A stretch of 64,000 bases of DNA from assembly GCA_017991595.1 (NCBI GenBank), contig JAGOQJ010000001.1, forward strand, positions 124,001-188,000. The letters are read 5' to 3'. Positions within the stretch are counted from its first letter, which is position 1, and each line of letters begins with the position of its first letter. Made by a program: the position numbers and the translations under genes. The notes below the pieces were generated by a model that was not told where the DNA came from, searched no databases, and was given only the letters and a program-made list of their open reading frames with translations. Source of the DNA: Candidatus Didemnitutus sp. GTDB taxonomy: Bacteria; Verrucomicrobiota; Verrucomicrobiia; Opitutales; Opitutaceae. This document shows, piece by piece, positions 3,753-53,153 of the stretch.

Positions 3753-5252
3753 ATGCTCCGCAAGCTCATCACCAAGATTAAGCAGACTTTCAAAGGCGAC
3801 AAGAAGAGCGCTGAAACGAAGTCCACCACCGCTCACCGCCACCCGAAACCCACCGGCAAGCACGAATCCCGCGGCCAGCGCCCTGCGCCCGGCCCCCACG
3901 GACACAAACCAGCCGGCAAGGGCGGTCACGCCCCCGCGGGTGGGGAACGCCGCGGCCACTCGTCTCACCGCGGCTCCGCCCCCGCTGTTGCCGGCTCTCC
4001 GGCTCCCCGCAGTGCGCCCAAGCCGCTGCCGGAAGTGCCGAAGATGGACACCGCGTTCACCGCGCTCGGCCTGAACGATCGCCTCGCCTACGCCGTCCAG
4101 CAGATGGGTTATGAGAGCCCGACGCCCATCCAAGCGCAGGCCATCCCGCAGGTGCTCGCGGGCAAGGACGTCATCGGCTCCGCCCAGACCGGCACGGGCA
4201 AGACCGCGGCCTTCGCCCTGCCCATCCTGCAGAAGCTTGGCCAGCGCGGCGCCTTGCGCTGCCTCATCCTCGAACCGACGCGCGAACTCGCGGTGCAGGT
4301 CGAGGAAGCCTTCAAGAATTTCTCCAAGTTCACCGATCTGCGCGTGACGGTGGTCTATGGCGGCGTCGGCTACGGCAAGCAGCGCGAGGACCTTGCGCGC
4401 GGCATCGACGTGCTCGCTGCCACGCCGGGTCGCCTGCTCGATTACATGGAGCAGGGCGAGATTCGCCTCGATCAGGTCGACATCCTCGTGCTCGACGAGG
4501 TCGACCGCATGCTCGACATGGGCTTCCTGCCCGATGTGAAGCGCATCGTGGCGAAGGTGCCGAAGAATCGTCAGACGCTCTTCTTCACCGCCACGCTGCC
4601 GCCCGAGATCGAGCAGCTCGCCTCCTGGGCGCTGCGCGATCCGTTCAAGATCTCCGTCAGCCGCGAACGCTCCACCGCCGAGACCATCACGCACGCGTTC
4701 TACCCGGTAGTGCAGGCGCAGAAGTTCGACCTGCTCGCGCACCTGCTCGAGCAGACGCAGTATCACAGCGTCATCATCTTCTCGCGCACCAAGAGCGGCG
4801 CCGATTACGTCGCCAACCGCCTCAAGCATGCCGGCCACACCTGCGCCGTGATGCACGCCGACCGCAGCCAGCAGGAGCGCATGGAGGCGTTGAAGGGATT
4901 CAAGTCCGGCAAATACGAGGTGCTCGTGGCGACGGATCTCGTCGCCCGCGGCCTCGACATCGCCGACGTGTCGCACGTGATCAATTTCGACGTCCCGGAA
5001 AATCCCGAGGACTACGTCCACCGCATCGGCCGCACCGGCCGCGCGCAGAAGACCGGCGACGCTTTCACGCTCGTCACCGAGGAGACCTGGCGCGACGCGC
5101 GCAGCATCGAACGCTTCATCGGCCAGAACATCGAGTGGAAGAAGGTCGAGGGCTTCAACTACACCTACTCCGGCATCTTCGACGGCGGCGGCATGCCGCA
5201 GGTCGCACCGGAAAAGCCGAAGAGCCGCCTCACGCGCGGCGGACGGCGCTGA
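3753..5252 (+). CDS. DEAD-box RNA helicase (RhlE-like) with DEVD motif II
   Basis: ATP-dependent RNA helicase of 499 residues. I chose ATG 3753 (MLRKLITKIKQ) because the frame also opens upstream through the terminator at 3670-3702; ATG 3714 is the alternative. Residues 1-90 are a basic Lys/His/Gly/Pro-rich tail. The helicase core shows the Q-motif (SPTPIQ), Walker A AQTGTGKT near 145, PTRELAVQ, TPGRLLD, motif II DEVD at 248-251 in place of DEAD, motif III FTA, ATDLVARGLDI, and HRIGRTGR. It probably remodels structured RNA in ribosome assembly or decay, as RhlE-type proteins do. It stands alone between two terminators. Confidence 0.92.
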   Translation: MLRKLITKIKQTFKGDKKSAETKSTTAHRHPKPTGKHESRGQRPAPGPHGHKPAGKGGHAPAGGERRGHSSHRGSAPAVAGSPAPRSAPKPLPEVPKMDTAFTALGLNDRLAYAVQQMGYESPTPIQAQAIPQVLAGKDVIGSAQTGTGKTAAFALPILQKLGQRGALRCLILEPTRELAVQVEEAFKNFSKFTDLRVTVVYGGVGYGKQREDLARGIDVLAATPGRLLDYMEQGEIRLDQVDILVLDEVDRMLDMGFLPDVKRIVAKVPKNRQTLFFTATLPPEIEQLASWALRDPFKISVSRERSTAETITHAFYPVVQAQKFDLLAHLLEQTQYHSVIIFSRTKSGADYVANRLKHAGHTCAVMHADRSQQERMEALKGFKSGKYEVLVATDLVARGLDIADVSHVINFDVPENPEDYVHRIGRTGRAQKTGDAFTLVTEETWRDARSIERFIGQNIEWKKVEGFNYTYSGIFDGGGMPQVAPEKPKSRLTRGGRR

Positions 5253-16799: not shown

Positions 16800-16841
16800 T
16801 TAGTCCCCGTAGCTCAACTGGATAGAGCAGCGGTTTCCTAA
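16800..16841 (+). repeat. Right attachment repeat: 5' half of the intact tRNA-Arg
   Basis: 42-bp perfect match to 15107-15148. The strand exchange point must lie inside this identity, which ends in the anticodon loop. Confidence 0.9.
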
Positions 16842-16878
16842 ACCGCGCATCCCGGTTCAAGTCCGGGCGGGGGCGCCA
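16803..16878 (+). tRNA. tRNA-Arg (anticodon CCT)
   Basis: A full cloverleaf of 76 bases can be drawn: acceptor GTCCCCG with CGGGGGC (one T-G pair), D arm GCTC/GAGC, anticodon stem GCGGT/ACCGC with loop TTCCTAA and anticodon CCT, T stem CCCGG/CCGGG with TTCAAGT loop, discriminator G and encoded CCA. It reads AGG. The first 39 bases are duplicated at 15110-15148 by the integrase element, so the promoter of this tRNA now comes from the element. Confidence 0.95.
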
Positions 16879-21627: not shown

Positions 21628-21712
21628 TGGTGCTCAGGGGGGGACTCGAACCCCCATGCGGTTAGGCACAGGCTTCTGAGACCTGCGTGTCTACCAATTC
21701 CACCACCTGAGC
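21628..21712 (-). tRNA. tRNA-Leu (anticodon CAG)
   Basis: Class II tRNA of 85 bases on the minus strand: acceptor GCTCAGG with CCTGAGC, discriminator A and encoded CCA; D arm with GGTAGACAC; anticodon stem CAGGT/GCCTG and loop CTCAGAA with anticodon CAG; a variable arm; and T stem GGGGG with the GTTCGAG loop. It decodes CTG, the main Leu codon of this G+C-rich genome. Confidence 0.95.
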
Positions 21713-46395: not shown

Positions 46396-46520
46396 GGAGA
46401 TCGACCTGAAACCCGCATCCGGCGGCGCGAACCGTTTCTCTCGCGTCGTGGCGGCAGGGGATGTTGGTGGAGTGACCATGGGCACTGCGCTTGCAGGCTC
46501 AGAGGATCGCCCTTCCCGAG

Positions 46521-46660
46521 GCCGACGAGGTTAGCTGACGGGCTCGGCCAGAGAAGTGGCCTGGTGGCGGGTTACCCCGTCGCGTGCGCCCCGTCCCGGC
46601 TCGCGCCGGGAAGTTGGTTCCCCCGCGCACCTGTCGAGGAAGCGACGGGTGCTTAGGCTG
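46521..46660 (-). promoter_or_regulatory. Cyclic di-AMP riboswitch (ydaO/yuaA type) upstream of ktrB
   Basis: Read on the minus strand, the leader has the conserved blocks in order: GCCTAA, a hairpin GCACC/GGTGC, GCGGGGGAACC, a hairpin CCCGGC/GCCGGG, GGGGCGCA, then CCGAGCCCGTCAGCTAAC and CTCGTCGGC, whose GGC pairs with the first GCC to close the aptamer. This is the ydaO consensus. It ends about 125 bases before the chosen ktrB start. c-di-AMP riboswitches are known to repress K+ uptake genes, which fits exactly. No T-run terminator is obvious after it, so it may act on translation. Confidence 0.92.
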
Positions 46661-46876
46661 CAATCACCGACAAAGAACGTGGGCGCGAAAAAATCCCTCC
46701 GCGCCACATCGGTCAATCCAACCCCCGGATGTGCGATGCAAGTGGCCTGACGTGGCCTGTTTGCACCGGGAATTTAACCCAGGCTGTGTCGGGGCGACGC
46801 GCCGGTGATTGTTCTGGAGCGTCGGCGAACCCCCGTTTGACACCCCGCGCCAACCGGATAGCCGTTTTCCACTTCA

Positions 46877-48067
46877 ATGTCCTATTCTGAAGACCGCGCC
46901 ACCTGGTTCGAGGGCCAGGGCCTTTGGCAACACATCCCGGAAGCCGATTGGCGCGACTGGACGTGGCAGCTCAAGAACCGCATCACCACCGTCGAGCAGC
47001 TCGAGCGCCTGATGACGCTGACGCCGGAGGAGAAGGCCGGCTGCCTTTTCGCGGCCCACAAGCTGGCACTGGCGATCACGCCCTACTTTTTCAACCTGAT
47101 CGACCGCGACAACCCGGCCTGCCCGATCCGCAAGCAGGTCATCCCGCGGATCGACGAGAGCATCGTGTCGGCCGAGGAGATGCTGGATTCGCTGGGCGAG
47201 GACGAACACTCGCCCGTGCCCGGCCTCGTGCACCGCTACCCGGATCGCGTGCTCTTCCTCGTGACCGATCGGTGCGCGAGCTATTGCCGTTACTGCACGC
47301 GCAGCCGGCTGGTCTCGAACGCGCAGGACTACAATTTTCACCCGGAATACGAGCAAGGCCTCCGCTACATCGAAGCCCACCCGGAGATCCGCGACGTGCT
47401 GCTCTCGGGCGGCGATCCGCTGCTGCTCTCGGACAAGAAGCTCGATCACCTGCTCGGCCGCCTCCGCGCGATCCCGCACGTGGAGTTCATCCGCATCGGG
47501 TCGCGCATCCCGGTGTTCCTGCCGCAGCGGATCACGCCGGAGCTGTGCGAGGTGTTCAAGAAGCACGGGCCGATCTGGATGAGCATCCACGTCAACCACC
47601 CGAAGGAAGCCACGCAGGAATTGAAGGACGCCTGCGAGCGCCTCTCCTACGCCGGCGTGCCGCTGGGCAACCAGAGCGTGCTGCTCCGCGGGGTGAACGA
47701 CGACGCCGAGGTCATGAAGGCGCTCGTCCACCGCCTGCTGCGCATGCGGGTGCGACCGTATTACCTCTACCAGATGGACCTCATCACGGGCGGCGCGCAC
47801 TTCAAGGCCGACGTCCGGAAGGGCATCGAGATCATCCAGGCGTTGCGCGGCCACACGACCGGTTACGCCGTGCCGCAATACGTGATCGATGCGCCCGGCG
47901 GTGGCGGCAAGGTGCCGATCAACCCGGAGTATCTGGAGAAGATCACGGACGACGAGGTCGTCTTCCGGAACTTCGAGGGCCGCGAGTTCCGCTACCCGCT
48001 CAAGAACACGCCGATCGTCGAAAAGCAAAACGCCGGCAAGGTGCTGCCGGCGGAAGTGCATCTGTAA
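46877..48067 (+). CDS. kamA: Lysine 2,3-aminomutase
   Basis: Radical SAM and PLP enzyme of 396 residues that turns L-lysine into L-beta-lysine. The cluster motif is Cys133-x3-Cys137-x2-Cys140 in CASYCRYCTRSR. The GGDPLLL block and IGSRIPV follow; the PLP Lys should lie in the C-terminal PGGGGKVPI segment. Length and the VPGLVHRYPDRVLFLVTDRC block favour KamA over the shorter EF-P enzyme EpmB, but substrate class is inferred. No acetyltransferase (ablB) or epmA gene is next to it. A possible -35 box TTGACA lies at 46837. Confidence 0.9.
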   Translation: MSYSEDRATWFEGQGLWQHIPEADWRDWTWQLKNRITTVEQLERLMTLTPEEKAGCLFAAHKLALAITPYFFNLIDRDNPACPIRKQVIPRIDESIVSAEEMLDSLGEDEHSPVPGLVHRYPDRVLFLVTDRCASYCRYCTRSRLVSNAQDYNFHPEYEQGLRYIEAHPEIRDVLLSGGDPLLLSDKKLDHLLGRLRAIPHVEFIRIGSRIPVFLPQRITPELCEVFKKHGPIWMSIHVNHPKEATQELKDACERLSYAGVPLGNQSVLLRGVNDDAEVMKALVHRLLRMRVRPYYLYQMDLITGGAHFKADVRKGIEIIQALRGHTTGYAVPQYVIDAPGGGGKVPINPEYLEKITDDEVVFRNFEGREFRYPLKNTPIVEKQNAGKVLPAEVHL

Positions 48068-50560: not shown

Positions 50561-51301
50561 TCAGCGCAGGGAGAACACTGCGCTCACGGTTGCGGTGATG
50601 GTCTTGTCGAGCGCGCTGGTGTCGTTGTTGCCCTCCCAACTCGTGGCGTTCGAGTGCAGCGGGTTGATCTGCACGACGCCCATGCGTGCGGAGCGCAGCC
50701 CGGCGACTTCGCTGCCGCCTTGGCGGGCGATCTGGTCGGCGCGCGCGCGGGCGTCCTTCGTCGCCTCGGCCATCATCTCCACCTTCGCCTCGCCGGCCTT
50801 CGTGTAGATGAACTGAAATTCGTGCGCCGAGAACACGATGCCCTGCTCGATCAACGCGCTCGTGTCGGCCGCGAGCCGCGGCACGCGCTCGACGTCGGTC
50901 GAGCGGATCTCGAGCCGTTGCAAGAGCCGGTAGCCGACGCGGCGCACGGTGGCTTCTTCGCCGTCGGCATCGCGGGCGCGCACGGTGAGTTCCTGCACTT
51001 CCACGGGCGCGACCGCGACATCGGTGAGTCCGCTCTGGGCCAGATGCGCGGTGGCTTGGGCGAGCTGCTCCTGCAGTTGCCGCTGCGCGGCGGGCAGCGT
51101 GGCGGCGTCGACGTGGAAACAGGTGCGCCAGACGATCAGGTCGGAGCGCACGTTTTTGCGGGCGGAACCGGTGACGTTGACGACGTTGGTTTCGCTCAGA
51201 CGCGTCCAGGCGCGGGCGACAAGGAAGGCGGCGAGAACGAGACCGGTGGCGAGGAAAAGTCCGGCGAGGAGGCCGAACAGGTGGGGGCGGGCAGGAGGCA
51301 T
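50561..51301 (-). CDS. SIMPL (DUF541) domain protein
   Basis: Envelope protein of 246 residues. An N-terminal membrane helix (LFGLLAGLFLATGLVLAAF) works as anchor or uncleaved signal. The SIMPL fold follows: VTGSARKNVRSDLIVW at the start, a helical middle part (QRQLQEQLAQATAHLAQSG), and MMAEATKDARARADQIARQGG near the end. SIMPL proteins such as YggE are periplasmic and linked to oxidative stress; biochemical role is unclear. The short twin RNA genes lie on the opposite strand beyond its start. Confidence 0.88.
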   Translation of the reverse strand: MPPARPHLFGLLAGLFLATGLVLAAFLVARAWTRLSETNVVNVTGSARKNVRSDLIVWRTCFHVDAATLPAAQRQLQEQLAQATAHLAQSGLTDVAVAPVEVQELTVRARDADGEEATVRRVGYRLLQRLEIRSTDVERVPRLAADTSALIEQGIVFSAHEFQFIYTKAGEAKVEMMAEATKDARARADQIARQGGSEVAGLRSARMGVVQINPLHSNATSWEGNNDTSALDKTITATVSAVFSLR

Positions 51302-51448
51302 GATTTCGGGCGTTTATGACGAGGCGGGGCGCGTTGCCGCGCCCTGGAAACCGGAAATCAACCCGCGCGCAAATCACTGGAGCCCAGCGAACAAAGCCAG
51401 ACATTTTCCGAAGAAGTTATTCACCGCAGAAATCTCCGGGAATCTTTC

Positions 51449-51472
51449 AACGTTTCGCGGGGCAGGTGCGTC
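51449..51472 (+). promoter_or_regulatory. ECF-sigma-like promoter of RNA unit A
   Basis: AAC (51449-51451) and CGTC (51469-51472) are separated by exactly 17 bp, as between the -35 AAC and -10 CGTC of many ECF promoters. The same layout is found in unit B although the spacer sequences differ. Confidence 0.55.
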
Positions 51473-51477
51473 TATCT

Positions 51478-51586
51478 GGGTGTGTTCAGTGTGTCGTTCT
51501 TAACGAAACATTGCTTGTAGTTCTTACGGTTTGCTTGGTGTTAGGTCATGAAGGGGTCGCTCGCGAGGGCGGCCCCTTCACGTTTC
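51478..51586 (+). ncRNA. Candidate small RNA, unit A of a tandem pair
   Basis: About 109 bases that are nearly identical to unit B, 248 bp downstream. From 51493 to about 51560 the units differ at only a few bases (GTCGTTCTTAACGA, then CATTGCTTGTAGTTCTTACG, then GTTTGCTTGGTGTTAGGTCA). No shared ORF fits. The 3' end is a hairpin GAAGGGGTCGC / GCGGCCCCTTC with one T-G pair; the T-run after it is weak. I infer a structured RNA made from the ECF-like promoter just upstream. Exact ends are estimates. Confidence 0.55.
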
Positions 51587-51696
51587 TACGGGTGGCGCAG
51601 AAATCTCCCGGTGTGCGAGCGATCAGCGGATGGATTTCTCCAAAATGTTGAAAATCGCTGAGTTGGGAGGTGTGCAGATTTCTGCAAAAATCTTTC

Positions 51697-51720
51697 AACG
51701 TTTTCGAGGGACGTGACGTC
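51697..51720 (+). promoter_or_regulatory. ECF-sigma-like promoter of RNA unit B
   Basis: AAC (51697-51699) and CGTC (51717-51720) with 17 bp between, matching unit A. Flanking TCTTTCAACGTTT and CGTCTATCTG are also shared. Confidence 0.55.
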
Positions 51721-51725
51721 TATCT

Positions 51726-51834
51726 GAGTGACAACAGTGCGTCGTTCTTAACGAGACATTGCTTGTAGTTCTTACGGTTTGCTTGGTGTTAGGTCATGCA
51801 GGGGCCGCCTGAAAGGGCGGCCCCTTCATGTTTA
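51726..51834 (+). ncRNA. Candidate small RNA, unit B of a tandem pair
   Basis: Second unit, conserved with unit A as described there. Its end hairpin AGGGGCCGCC / GGCGGCCCCT replaces the T-G pair of unit A by C-G and swaps other stem-flanking bases, so the structure is kept while the sequence changes, a sign of selection on RNA. Ends are estimates from the promoter and hairpin. Confidence 0.55.
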
Positions 51835-51871
51835 TGGGGTCGGCGCCCGCCGGCGTCCCTTGGGCGGCCAA

Positions 51872-51953: not shown

Positions 51954-53153
51954 TCAGCCTTGCGCGAGCGCGCGGGCGAAGAGATCGGCGACGGCAGTCT
52001 GGTTGCGGGGATTCAGACCGGCGACGTTGATGCGTCCGCTCTCGATCAGGTAGAGCTTGTGCTCCTGACGCAGCCAGCGCGCGCGTTCGCCGGAGAGTTC
52101 GGTGAGCGCGAACATGCCGTGCTGCTCCGCGAGCGGCGCGAACGCGGCGCCGAAGCCGCGCTCGGTCATGAGGCGCACGAGATCCTGGCGCATCTGCACG
52201 AGGCGGAGACGCATCGTCTCGAGTTCGCCCAGCCAGAGCGGACGCAGCTCGGCGTGCGTCATCACGGTCTCCGCGATGCGCGCGCCGTGGGCGGACGGGC
52301 TCGACCACGCGGTGCGCACGACGGCCTTGGCCTGACTGAGCGCGCGGCGCACGCCCTCGGCATCCGCGCCGACGAGCAGCAGGGCGCCGACGCGTTCGCC
52401 GTAGAGGCCGAGGTTCTTGGAGAACGAGACCGCGGCGAGGAAGCTGAGTCCCATCTCGGCGGCGAGGCGGATGGGGAACGCGTCCTGATCCGGTCCGCGC
52501 GCGAGCCCCTGATAAGCGGAGTCGAAGAGCGGCACGAGTCCGCGTTGCTGCACGGCGGTGAGCAGGGTGCGCCACTCGCTCTCGGAAGGATCGTCGCCGG
52601 TGGGGTTGTGGCAGCAACCGTGGAGCAACACGGTGTCGCCACGCGCGGCGGTCGCGAGGCTGGCGAGCACGGCGTCGAGGTCGCGGCGCTTGGTCTGCGC
52701 ATCGAAATAGCGATACTCCGCGGGTTTCAACCCGGCGGCGCGGCAGATGTTCGGGTGGTTCGGCCAGGTGGGGTTGCTGATCCACGCGGTGGCTGTGCCG
52801 TGCAGCAGGTGCACGATTTCGGCGGCGAGGCGCACGGCGCCGGTGCCGCCGGGCGTCTGCACCACGGCGACGCGCGGGCCGAGCTGGGCGCGCAGCGCAG
52901 GGCCGAGCACGAACTCGGCGACGGCCTCGTTGAACTTGGCGCTGCCGTCGATCGGCAGGTAGGTCTTTGGCGGCGCGGCTTGGAGCAACAGCTCCTCCGC
53001 GCGCCGCACGCAGGCGAGCGTGGGCGTGCGGCCGGCCTCGTCGAGGTAGATGCCTTGGGCGAGGTTGATCTTGGTGGAACTCGGGTCGCGGTTGAACGCG
53101 GCGGCGAGGCCGAGGATCGGATCCTCGGGAGCGAGGGCAAGGGCGTCGAACAT
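51954..53153 (-). CDS. Aspartate/aromatic aminotransferase family protein
   Basis: PLP enzyme of 399 residues, subgroup I-alpha like AspC/TyrB. Motifs: DPILGLAAAFNRD start block, INLAQGIYLDEAGRTP, TPGGTGAVRLAAE, SNPTWPNHPNI, CCHNPTGDDPS, FDSAYQGLARG, and the Schiff-base Lys in SFSKNLGLYGERVG. It would move amino groups between aspartate or aromatic amino acids and 2-oxoglutarate. It is the last gene of a minus-strand operon (8 bp after the SDR gene), so it may act in the same catabolic route rather than general metabolism. Confidence 0.92.
   Translation of the reverse strand: MFDALALAPEDPILGLAAAFNRDPSSTKINLAQGIYLDEAGRTPTLACVRRAEELLLQAAPPKTYLPIDGSAKFNEAVAEFVLGPALRAQLGPRVAVVQTPGGTGAVRLAAEIVHLLHGTATAWISNPTWPNHPNICRAAGLKPAEYRYFDAQTKRRDLDAVLASLATAARGDTVLLHGCCHNPTGDDPSESEWRTLLTAVQQRGLVPLFDSAYQGLARGPDQDAFPIRLAAEMGLSFLAAVSFSKNLGLYGERVGALLLVGADAEGVRRALSQAKAVVRTAWSSPSAHGARIAETVMTHAELRPLWLGELETMRLRLVQMRQDLVRLMTERGFGAAFAPLAEQHGMFALTELSGERARWLRQEHKLYLIESGRINVAGLNPRNQTAVADLFARALAQG

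Follow-up and report, generated by a model that had tools for sequence, protein, structure and literature searches.

Twin units in an Opitutaceae genome belong to a conserved family of predicted sibling small RNAs with ECF-type promoter elements

Two like units on the + strand of a Candidatus Didemnitutus sp. genome (51446-51589 and 51694-51837, 248 bp apart) are members of a conserved RNA family of which no description was found in the literature and databases searched, and whose kind would be that of sibling small RNAs (sRNAs) controlled by an extracytoplasmic-function (ECF) sigma factor. Positions refer to the window, that is, the whole 64,000 nt stretch of DNA that was analysed, and the source genome (G000) is 2.88 Mb in size and 87% complete. 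We read the twins as genes of sibling trans-acting sRNAs with ECF-type promoters, which would pair through short seeds and act in repression under stress in an Hfq-independent manner, and we place the probability of this reading at roughly 55%.

Both units follow the same order, with TTCAACGTTT, 13 mostly differing bases, CGTCTATC, a small hairpin, a core stretch, and a GC-rich hairpin followed by a short T run. The promoter-like elements of unit 1 (51446..51476, +; TTCAACG...CGTCTATC; assigned by pattern match and family logo) and unit 2 (51694..51724, +; assigned by pattern match) share the form TTCAACGTTT-N13-CGTCTATC (AAC-17-CGTC), and a genome-wide pattern search returned the same two elements at G000:C12:175446-175476 and 175694-175724. 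The original prediction, which had described twin units 248 bp apart with AAC-17 bp-CGTC elements and freely varying spacers between them, was thus confirmed in both respects, the 13 bases of N13 being mostly different. With the 5′-end set 10 nt past the start of CGTC and the 3′-end after the T run, the predicted sRNAs of ~110 nt would span 51479..51589 (+) and 51727..51837 (+), and covariance model matches lie at 51517-51586 and 51765-51834, respectively. A 5′ hairpin is predicted at 51487..51513 (+) in unit 1, where the homologous hairpin covaries in 37 other class I copies, class I being that of the twins, and at 51735..51761 (+) in unit 2. Alignments place the conserved GU-rich core at 51515..51548 (+), mostly without strong structure, and at 51763..51796 (+), and the mean unpaired probabilities at its centre are 0.49 and 0.56, respectively. 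The core had been called near-invariant, and 51493-51550 indeed differs from its twin at 1 of 58 positions. Predicted folds and covariation locate the terminator hairpins at 51549..51580 (+), followed by the short T run, and at 51795..51830 (+); the folds of both units preserve the pairing despite base changes, as the original prediction had also noticed.

The twins are flanked by a SIMPL-domain (DUF541) gene (50561-51301, -), which stands between kamA and the RNAs and has the same place in part of the relatives, and by an aminotransferase gene (51954-53153, -). The kamA-type gene (46877..48067, +) encodes a radical SAM protein of the KamA family, close to lysine 2,3-aminomutase; this gene, whose position upstream of class I units is conserved, lies ~3.4 kb upstream of the twins. 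The Rfam search of the window also marked a c-di-AMP riboswitch (RF00379, 45.9 bits; 46506-46669, -) on the other strand immediately upstream of kamA, and two tRNA genes (16803-16875, +; 21631-21712, -).

The distribution of class I was determined by several searches. BLAST with unit 2 found homologues in 38 of 95 sampled relatives, which correspond to 38 of the 61 genomes of the same family and 0 of the 34 from other families, and the stretches fetched from these matches contained 50 copies. An exact 19-mer of the core was found in at least 118 stretches of GTDB contigs, and among the matches listed 117 came from Verrucomicrobia/Opitutaceae-type organisms and one was named just 'bacterium'. 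Class I units are present in Ereboglobus sp. PH5-10 (L155) and Opitutaceae bacterium EW11 (L165), both of which are cultured. Because these 118 stretches were chosen by the exact 19-mer, its invariance among them is given by construction; the 50 BLAST-found copies are free of this selection, and few exceptions to the 19-mer occur among them. The original prediction had called for a covariance model search of related genomes, and R1, a model of core plus terminator, matched 194 of 252 Opitutaceae genomes (E<=0.001), mostly 3′ of a kamA-type gene, a count that may include a few chance rows since one match in the twins' own genome (C12:758868, E 3.6e-4) looks like a terminator after a tRNA; the other 58 of the 252 gave no match. 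Among 387 genomes of the phylum, 76 were matched at E<=0.01, and the six out-of-family matches inspected (L258-L261, L273, L274) were rejected as chance terminators lacking the promoter (scores -9 to -29) or the core. In a set of 99 class I loci, the RNA lies 3′ of kamA on the same strand in 76, at a median of ~195 nt, and two or more copies are present in 19, although the set was split by script and includes at least four class II loci (L072, L074, L128, L129), and the twin counts miss diverged copies. In genus g45 (G117; L266, L267), the copies differ in their cores but have kept promoter and terminator, and one locus (L245, G014:C14:3613) is the sole core-like match with neither promoter nor visible terminator. 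The core had no match in the plasmids searched. Rfam 15, run on the whole window, gave no match to the units at gathering scores; the best sub-threshold match scored 19.5 bits where 72.2 would be needed, which agrees with the earlier statement that no described RNA family with this core was known.

Several lines of evidence speak for RNA genes. The twins fold better than dinucleotide shuffles, with z-scores of -3.73 and -4.05. In the 37 sequences with a plainly alignable 5′ part among 65 dereplicated class I copies, a set from which the window's own hairpin type is absent, 89.2% of the cells of the 5′ hairpin are paired and the covariation score is 0.408 versus 0.246 in shuffles. In the terminator, 11 of 11 pairs show changes on both sides (55 sequences), and the covariation of both hairpins exceeds that of shuffled and slid controls. 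The 5′ hairpin is short or missing in some copies, so the constant parts are the promoter, the core and the terminator. The core itself is only about half unpaired, with values of 0.39 to 0.59 in the single-sequence ensembles of six copies, and about 30 of its bases are fixed in class I, in an alignment that, like the reading-frame count below, takes most of its rows from the 19-mer-chosen stretches. In the 65 dereplicated copies, one reading frame is stopped within the core in all 65; the other two are each open in 58, but a start codon is present in just 39 and 31 copies, and in 47 and 42 the frame runs on past the terminator to the end of the stretch without a stop. A protein-coding reading was rejected on these grounds, there being no shared start and the open frames mostly overrunning the terminator. 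The earlier claim that no common ORF fits thus held: a conserved frame across the core, named beforehand as the observation that would speak against the RNA reading, was looked for in these 65 copies and is absent. That the units are not RNA genes at all but a DNA repeat element or a gene for a small protein could draw on their repeated occurrence and on the two frames open through the core in most copies; the compensatory changes in both hairpins, the synteny conserved at two loci and the frames without a common start that overrun the terminator make this extremely improbable. What is found is a free-standing intergenic unit with its own promoter-like element and terminator and without a conserved ORF, as is characteristic of an sRNA gene.

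A further copy was found in a 26 kb viral contig (L374, IMGVR_UViG_3300005529_000089), in which a 5′ hairpin, TTTGTAGTTCTACGGTTTGCTTGGTGTTAGGTC and a terminator-like hairpin lie at ~3975-4085 (-), one ORF after a major head protein (phrog_1328, E 9.2e-26). No match to the promoter pattern was found beside this unit. Retention of the hairpin-core-hairpin build in a phage, in the absence of the promoter, speaks for a use of the RNA as such. A 17-mer also matched two other viral sequences (L380, L381), which were set aside because they are built differently.

The promoter-like element recurs with the core. A bipartite pattern fits 149 of 160 core copies, although the regular expression itself fixed several columns of the resulting logo; the remaining 11 comprise eight variants recognised by eye, two cut by the record end, and one, L245, with none. 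In the 149 copies, the spacer to CGTC is 16 in 136, 17 in 12 and 18 in 1; 16 is thus usual across the family, and 17 is the variant carried by the window twins. About half of the -35 elements have AAC and the rest AGC (position 12: A 76, G 73). This layout, with AAC in the -35, CGTC in the -10 and, in 148 of 149 copies, a spacer of 16 or 17, is of the ECF type. When the strict pattern was applied to ten whole genomes, it gave 11 matches in 6 genomes, all at these sRNA genes, two of them revealing class II copies, versus 0 for the reversed control. Scanning 1.38 Mb of fetched DNA, in which sRNA loci are over-represented, with a matrix gave 166 matches, 162 of which were placed at such genes by script, three by eye and one elsewhere, and its control gave one match. 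The relaxed pattern gave 67 matches in 20 genomes versus 18 in the control, and its sRNA share rests on 25 placed by position as class I or II and 18 others that were read (11 sRNA-like, 1 unclear, 6 not), with 24 unfetched; at least six relaxed matches thus fall at places other than small RNA genes, and no common theme appeared among these on reading. The motif, its spacing and its recurrence at small RNA genes together suggest a promoter of the ECF sigma type. The original prediction of duplicated regulatory RNAs driven by an ECF sigma factor therefore stands in its RNA part on conservation, covariation, the promoter-like element and the lack of an Rfam match, while its ECF part is inferred from motif, spacing and recurrence.

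ECF regulons usually include an autoregulated sigma gene. The genome, which is 87% complete, has 28 loci with a sigma region-4 match, and the promoter motif is absent from all of them; their best promoter score is 10.2, as against 17.4 in the weakest of the known copies and 7.1 in the best control. This search, which yielded no ECF gene with the motif, and the partial likeness of the -35 TTGARC to TTGACA would suit real sRNAs transcribed by another sigma factor, or by sigma70 with an activator. We consider this unlikely given the strict AAC/AGC-16-CGTC layout (spacer 16 in 136 of 149, with some columns fixed by the regular expression), and TCTATC, judged by eye against the sigma70 consensus, makes a poor sigma70 -10. 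Moreover, excerpts of a study of ECF41 promoters describe CGTC as comparable to many ECF promoters, with a spacer of 16 +- 1 and a differing -35 (PMC3426412), so that the -10 CGTC and the spacing seen here also occur in ECF41 promoters. The -35 elements are distinct, TTGARCGTTT or TTCAACGTTT here versus TGTCACA in ECF41, and the ECF41 targets in these excerpts are COE protein genes (PMC3426412).

The same promoter type precedes further classes of RNA. Class II is compact and its copies are dispersed; the third copy in this genome, at C6:60016-60126 (-), belongs to it. In class II, the stems of the terminator vary but its loop reads GGGG in 14 of 15 rows (e.g. L211, L075, L093, L129), and this loop may offer a second contact site; the exception, L007, is in fact a short copy of class I, and GGG was found in L275, a later match. 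The 11 sRNA-like matches of the relaxed pattern are short GU-rich RNAs with a hairpin, eight of which form class III with a common AAGTCGGCAAGGGCGC-type end. The class III model (R2) matched 90 of 252 Opitutaceae genomes and 0 of 13 from the window's genus, and it exposed tandem arrays with the core GTTTGTAGTTTGATAAGTCG (class IV) in genera with no or marginal R1 matches, including five promoters in a row at L328. In 177 genomes of the order, a strict pattern gave six matches, namely four in the family, one without a terminator (L376) and one in family f11, where genome G716 (L382, G716:C14; reverse strand offsets 5415 and 6087) has two promoter units with GU-rich RNAs ending in terminators.

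Most class III loci (27 of 30) and class IV loci (13 of 15) contain an rsmE-type gene, which lies 3′ of the RNA in the rows displayed; this is what would be expected if the RNAs were cis-acting leaders or attenuators of the next gene. The same gene downstream on the same strand is, however, not found for class I, which is placed after kamA in 76 of 99 loci and whose next downstream gene in the window lies on the opposite strand; class II is dispersed, and classes III and IV precede rsmE, yet as tandem promoter-terminator units, one gene being preceded by five successive promoter copies. Start regions show no special pairing either, and the cis-acting explanation is very unlikely.

The leaders before the terminator are poor in C (15.3%) and rich in T (38.3%) across 215 distinct sequences. 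GUUUG occurs at least twice in 114 of the 215 leaders versus a mean of 8.1 in shuffles, and GUAGU in 78 versus 11.8, although the leaders are related and do not represent 215 independent cases. Hfq exceeded the cut-off in 0 of 26 Opitutaceae genomes, with one weak match at 20.3 bits against a cut-off of 27, whereas the E. coli and B. subtilis controls were positive. Near-perfect complements of the core were not enriched in 29 family genomes, with 5 non-sRNA sites compared with 16 for the reversed pattern, after 35 matches had been counted as sRNA genes, the uninspected G021:C34 among them; this deficit may reflect either composition or avoidance. The start regions of kamA, rsmE and SIMPL show no preference for the core over shuffled versions of it (for the class I core, 33, 27 and 26 of 60 shuffles, respectively, did equally well or better), and these flanking genes were dropped as targets. 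The start region of an SDR gene (four sequences) ranked 4 of 60 against shuffled cores. Cytochrome c, suggested as a target by a single match (L003, E 0.033), received no support from the complement searches and was likewise dropped.

CsrB and RsmZ are protein-sequestering RNAs that occur as sibling copies and carry a repeated GGA motif in hairpin loops. By the same logic, the GU-rich core with its repeated GUUUG could be a decoy that titrates an RNA-binding protein, the tandem copies raising the dose. The repetition of GUUUG and GUAGU in the related leaders far above shuffles, the tandem copies (up to five), the lack of enrichment of near-perfect complements and the absence of Hfq above the cut-off would all fit such a role, and sibling copies with a repeated short motif are what the two systems have in common. 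Yet the ~30 fixed bases of class I exceed the needs of a pentamer motif, and GUUUG lies in a linker instead of the repeated hairpin loops that hold GGA in CsrB and RsmZ, and the binding protein is hypothetical; we regard the decoy function as rather improbable, although it is the main rival. The first choice is short-seed pairing with CA-rich sites, a choice made by analogy with GU-rich sRNAs of GcvB-like behaviour.

Under the preferred reading of trans-acting siblings, each twin would have its own ECF-type promoter and an intrinsic terminator, whose hairpin is conserved and covarying and probably terminates transcription. In the ~110 nt RNA, a 5′ hairpin that can be replaced would be followed by the invariant core, which is C-poor and GU-rich and has little strong structure, and by the terminator hairpin; the core is the likely working part. 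Its most likely mode of action would be short-seed pairing with CA-rich sequences close to the ribosome-binding sites of several mRNAs. Stress would activate the sigma factor, and the RNAs would then repress these mRNAs, target, sign and stress being guesses based on sigmaE sRNAs already described. With the same promoter in front of copies both tandem and dispersed (classes I to IV), the dose would rise and the targets would be shared out. As Hfq is unrecognisable, such sRNA action would be independent of Hfq.

Among known systems, the RpoE/sigmaE sRNAs are alike in that several sRNAs belong to one regulon with an ECF-type promoter. They have no sequence relation to the present family as judged by Rfam, and here Hfq is not recognisable and near-identical siblings stand in tandem; RpoE also serves protein genes, whereas the strict promoter search in ten genomes matched sRNA genes only. 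Sibling sRNAs such as NgncR_162/163 and NmsR of Neisseria (PMC5362039, PMC9973317) come from adjacent, very similar genes with a common core, as found here, but those siblings belong to another phylum, and in the present family each copy has an ECF-type promoter that is common to further classes.

Among the open-access papers listed for small RNAs, ECF sigma factors and novel noncoding RNAs in Opitutaceae/Verrucomicrobia, no study of this kind appeared, and a term search of the main texts of two large surveys of ncRNAs (PMC11109978, PMC8632094) found no mention of Opitutus or Verrucomicrobia; regulatory RNAs of Verrucomicrobiota thus appear to be little described. What stands out in the present family is the apparent leaning of its promoter to sRNA genes, the missing Hfq and the phage copy. 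It is a tentative, and on balance doubtful, extension that one sigma factor serves mainly or only the GU-rich sRNAs of classes I-IV in Hfq-less Opitutaceae and their kin, and that a phage took a promoterless unit to steer its host during head-gene expression. A family of RNAs this strictly conserved, with a single promoter type, natural siblings and a copy in a phage, makes testable how sRNAs act without a recognisable Hfq, and likewise whether a sigma factor can have a regulon chiefly of RNAs. The recurrence of the family across Opitutaceae, together with the phage copy, points to an undescribed RNA-based control network.
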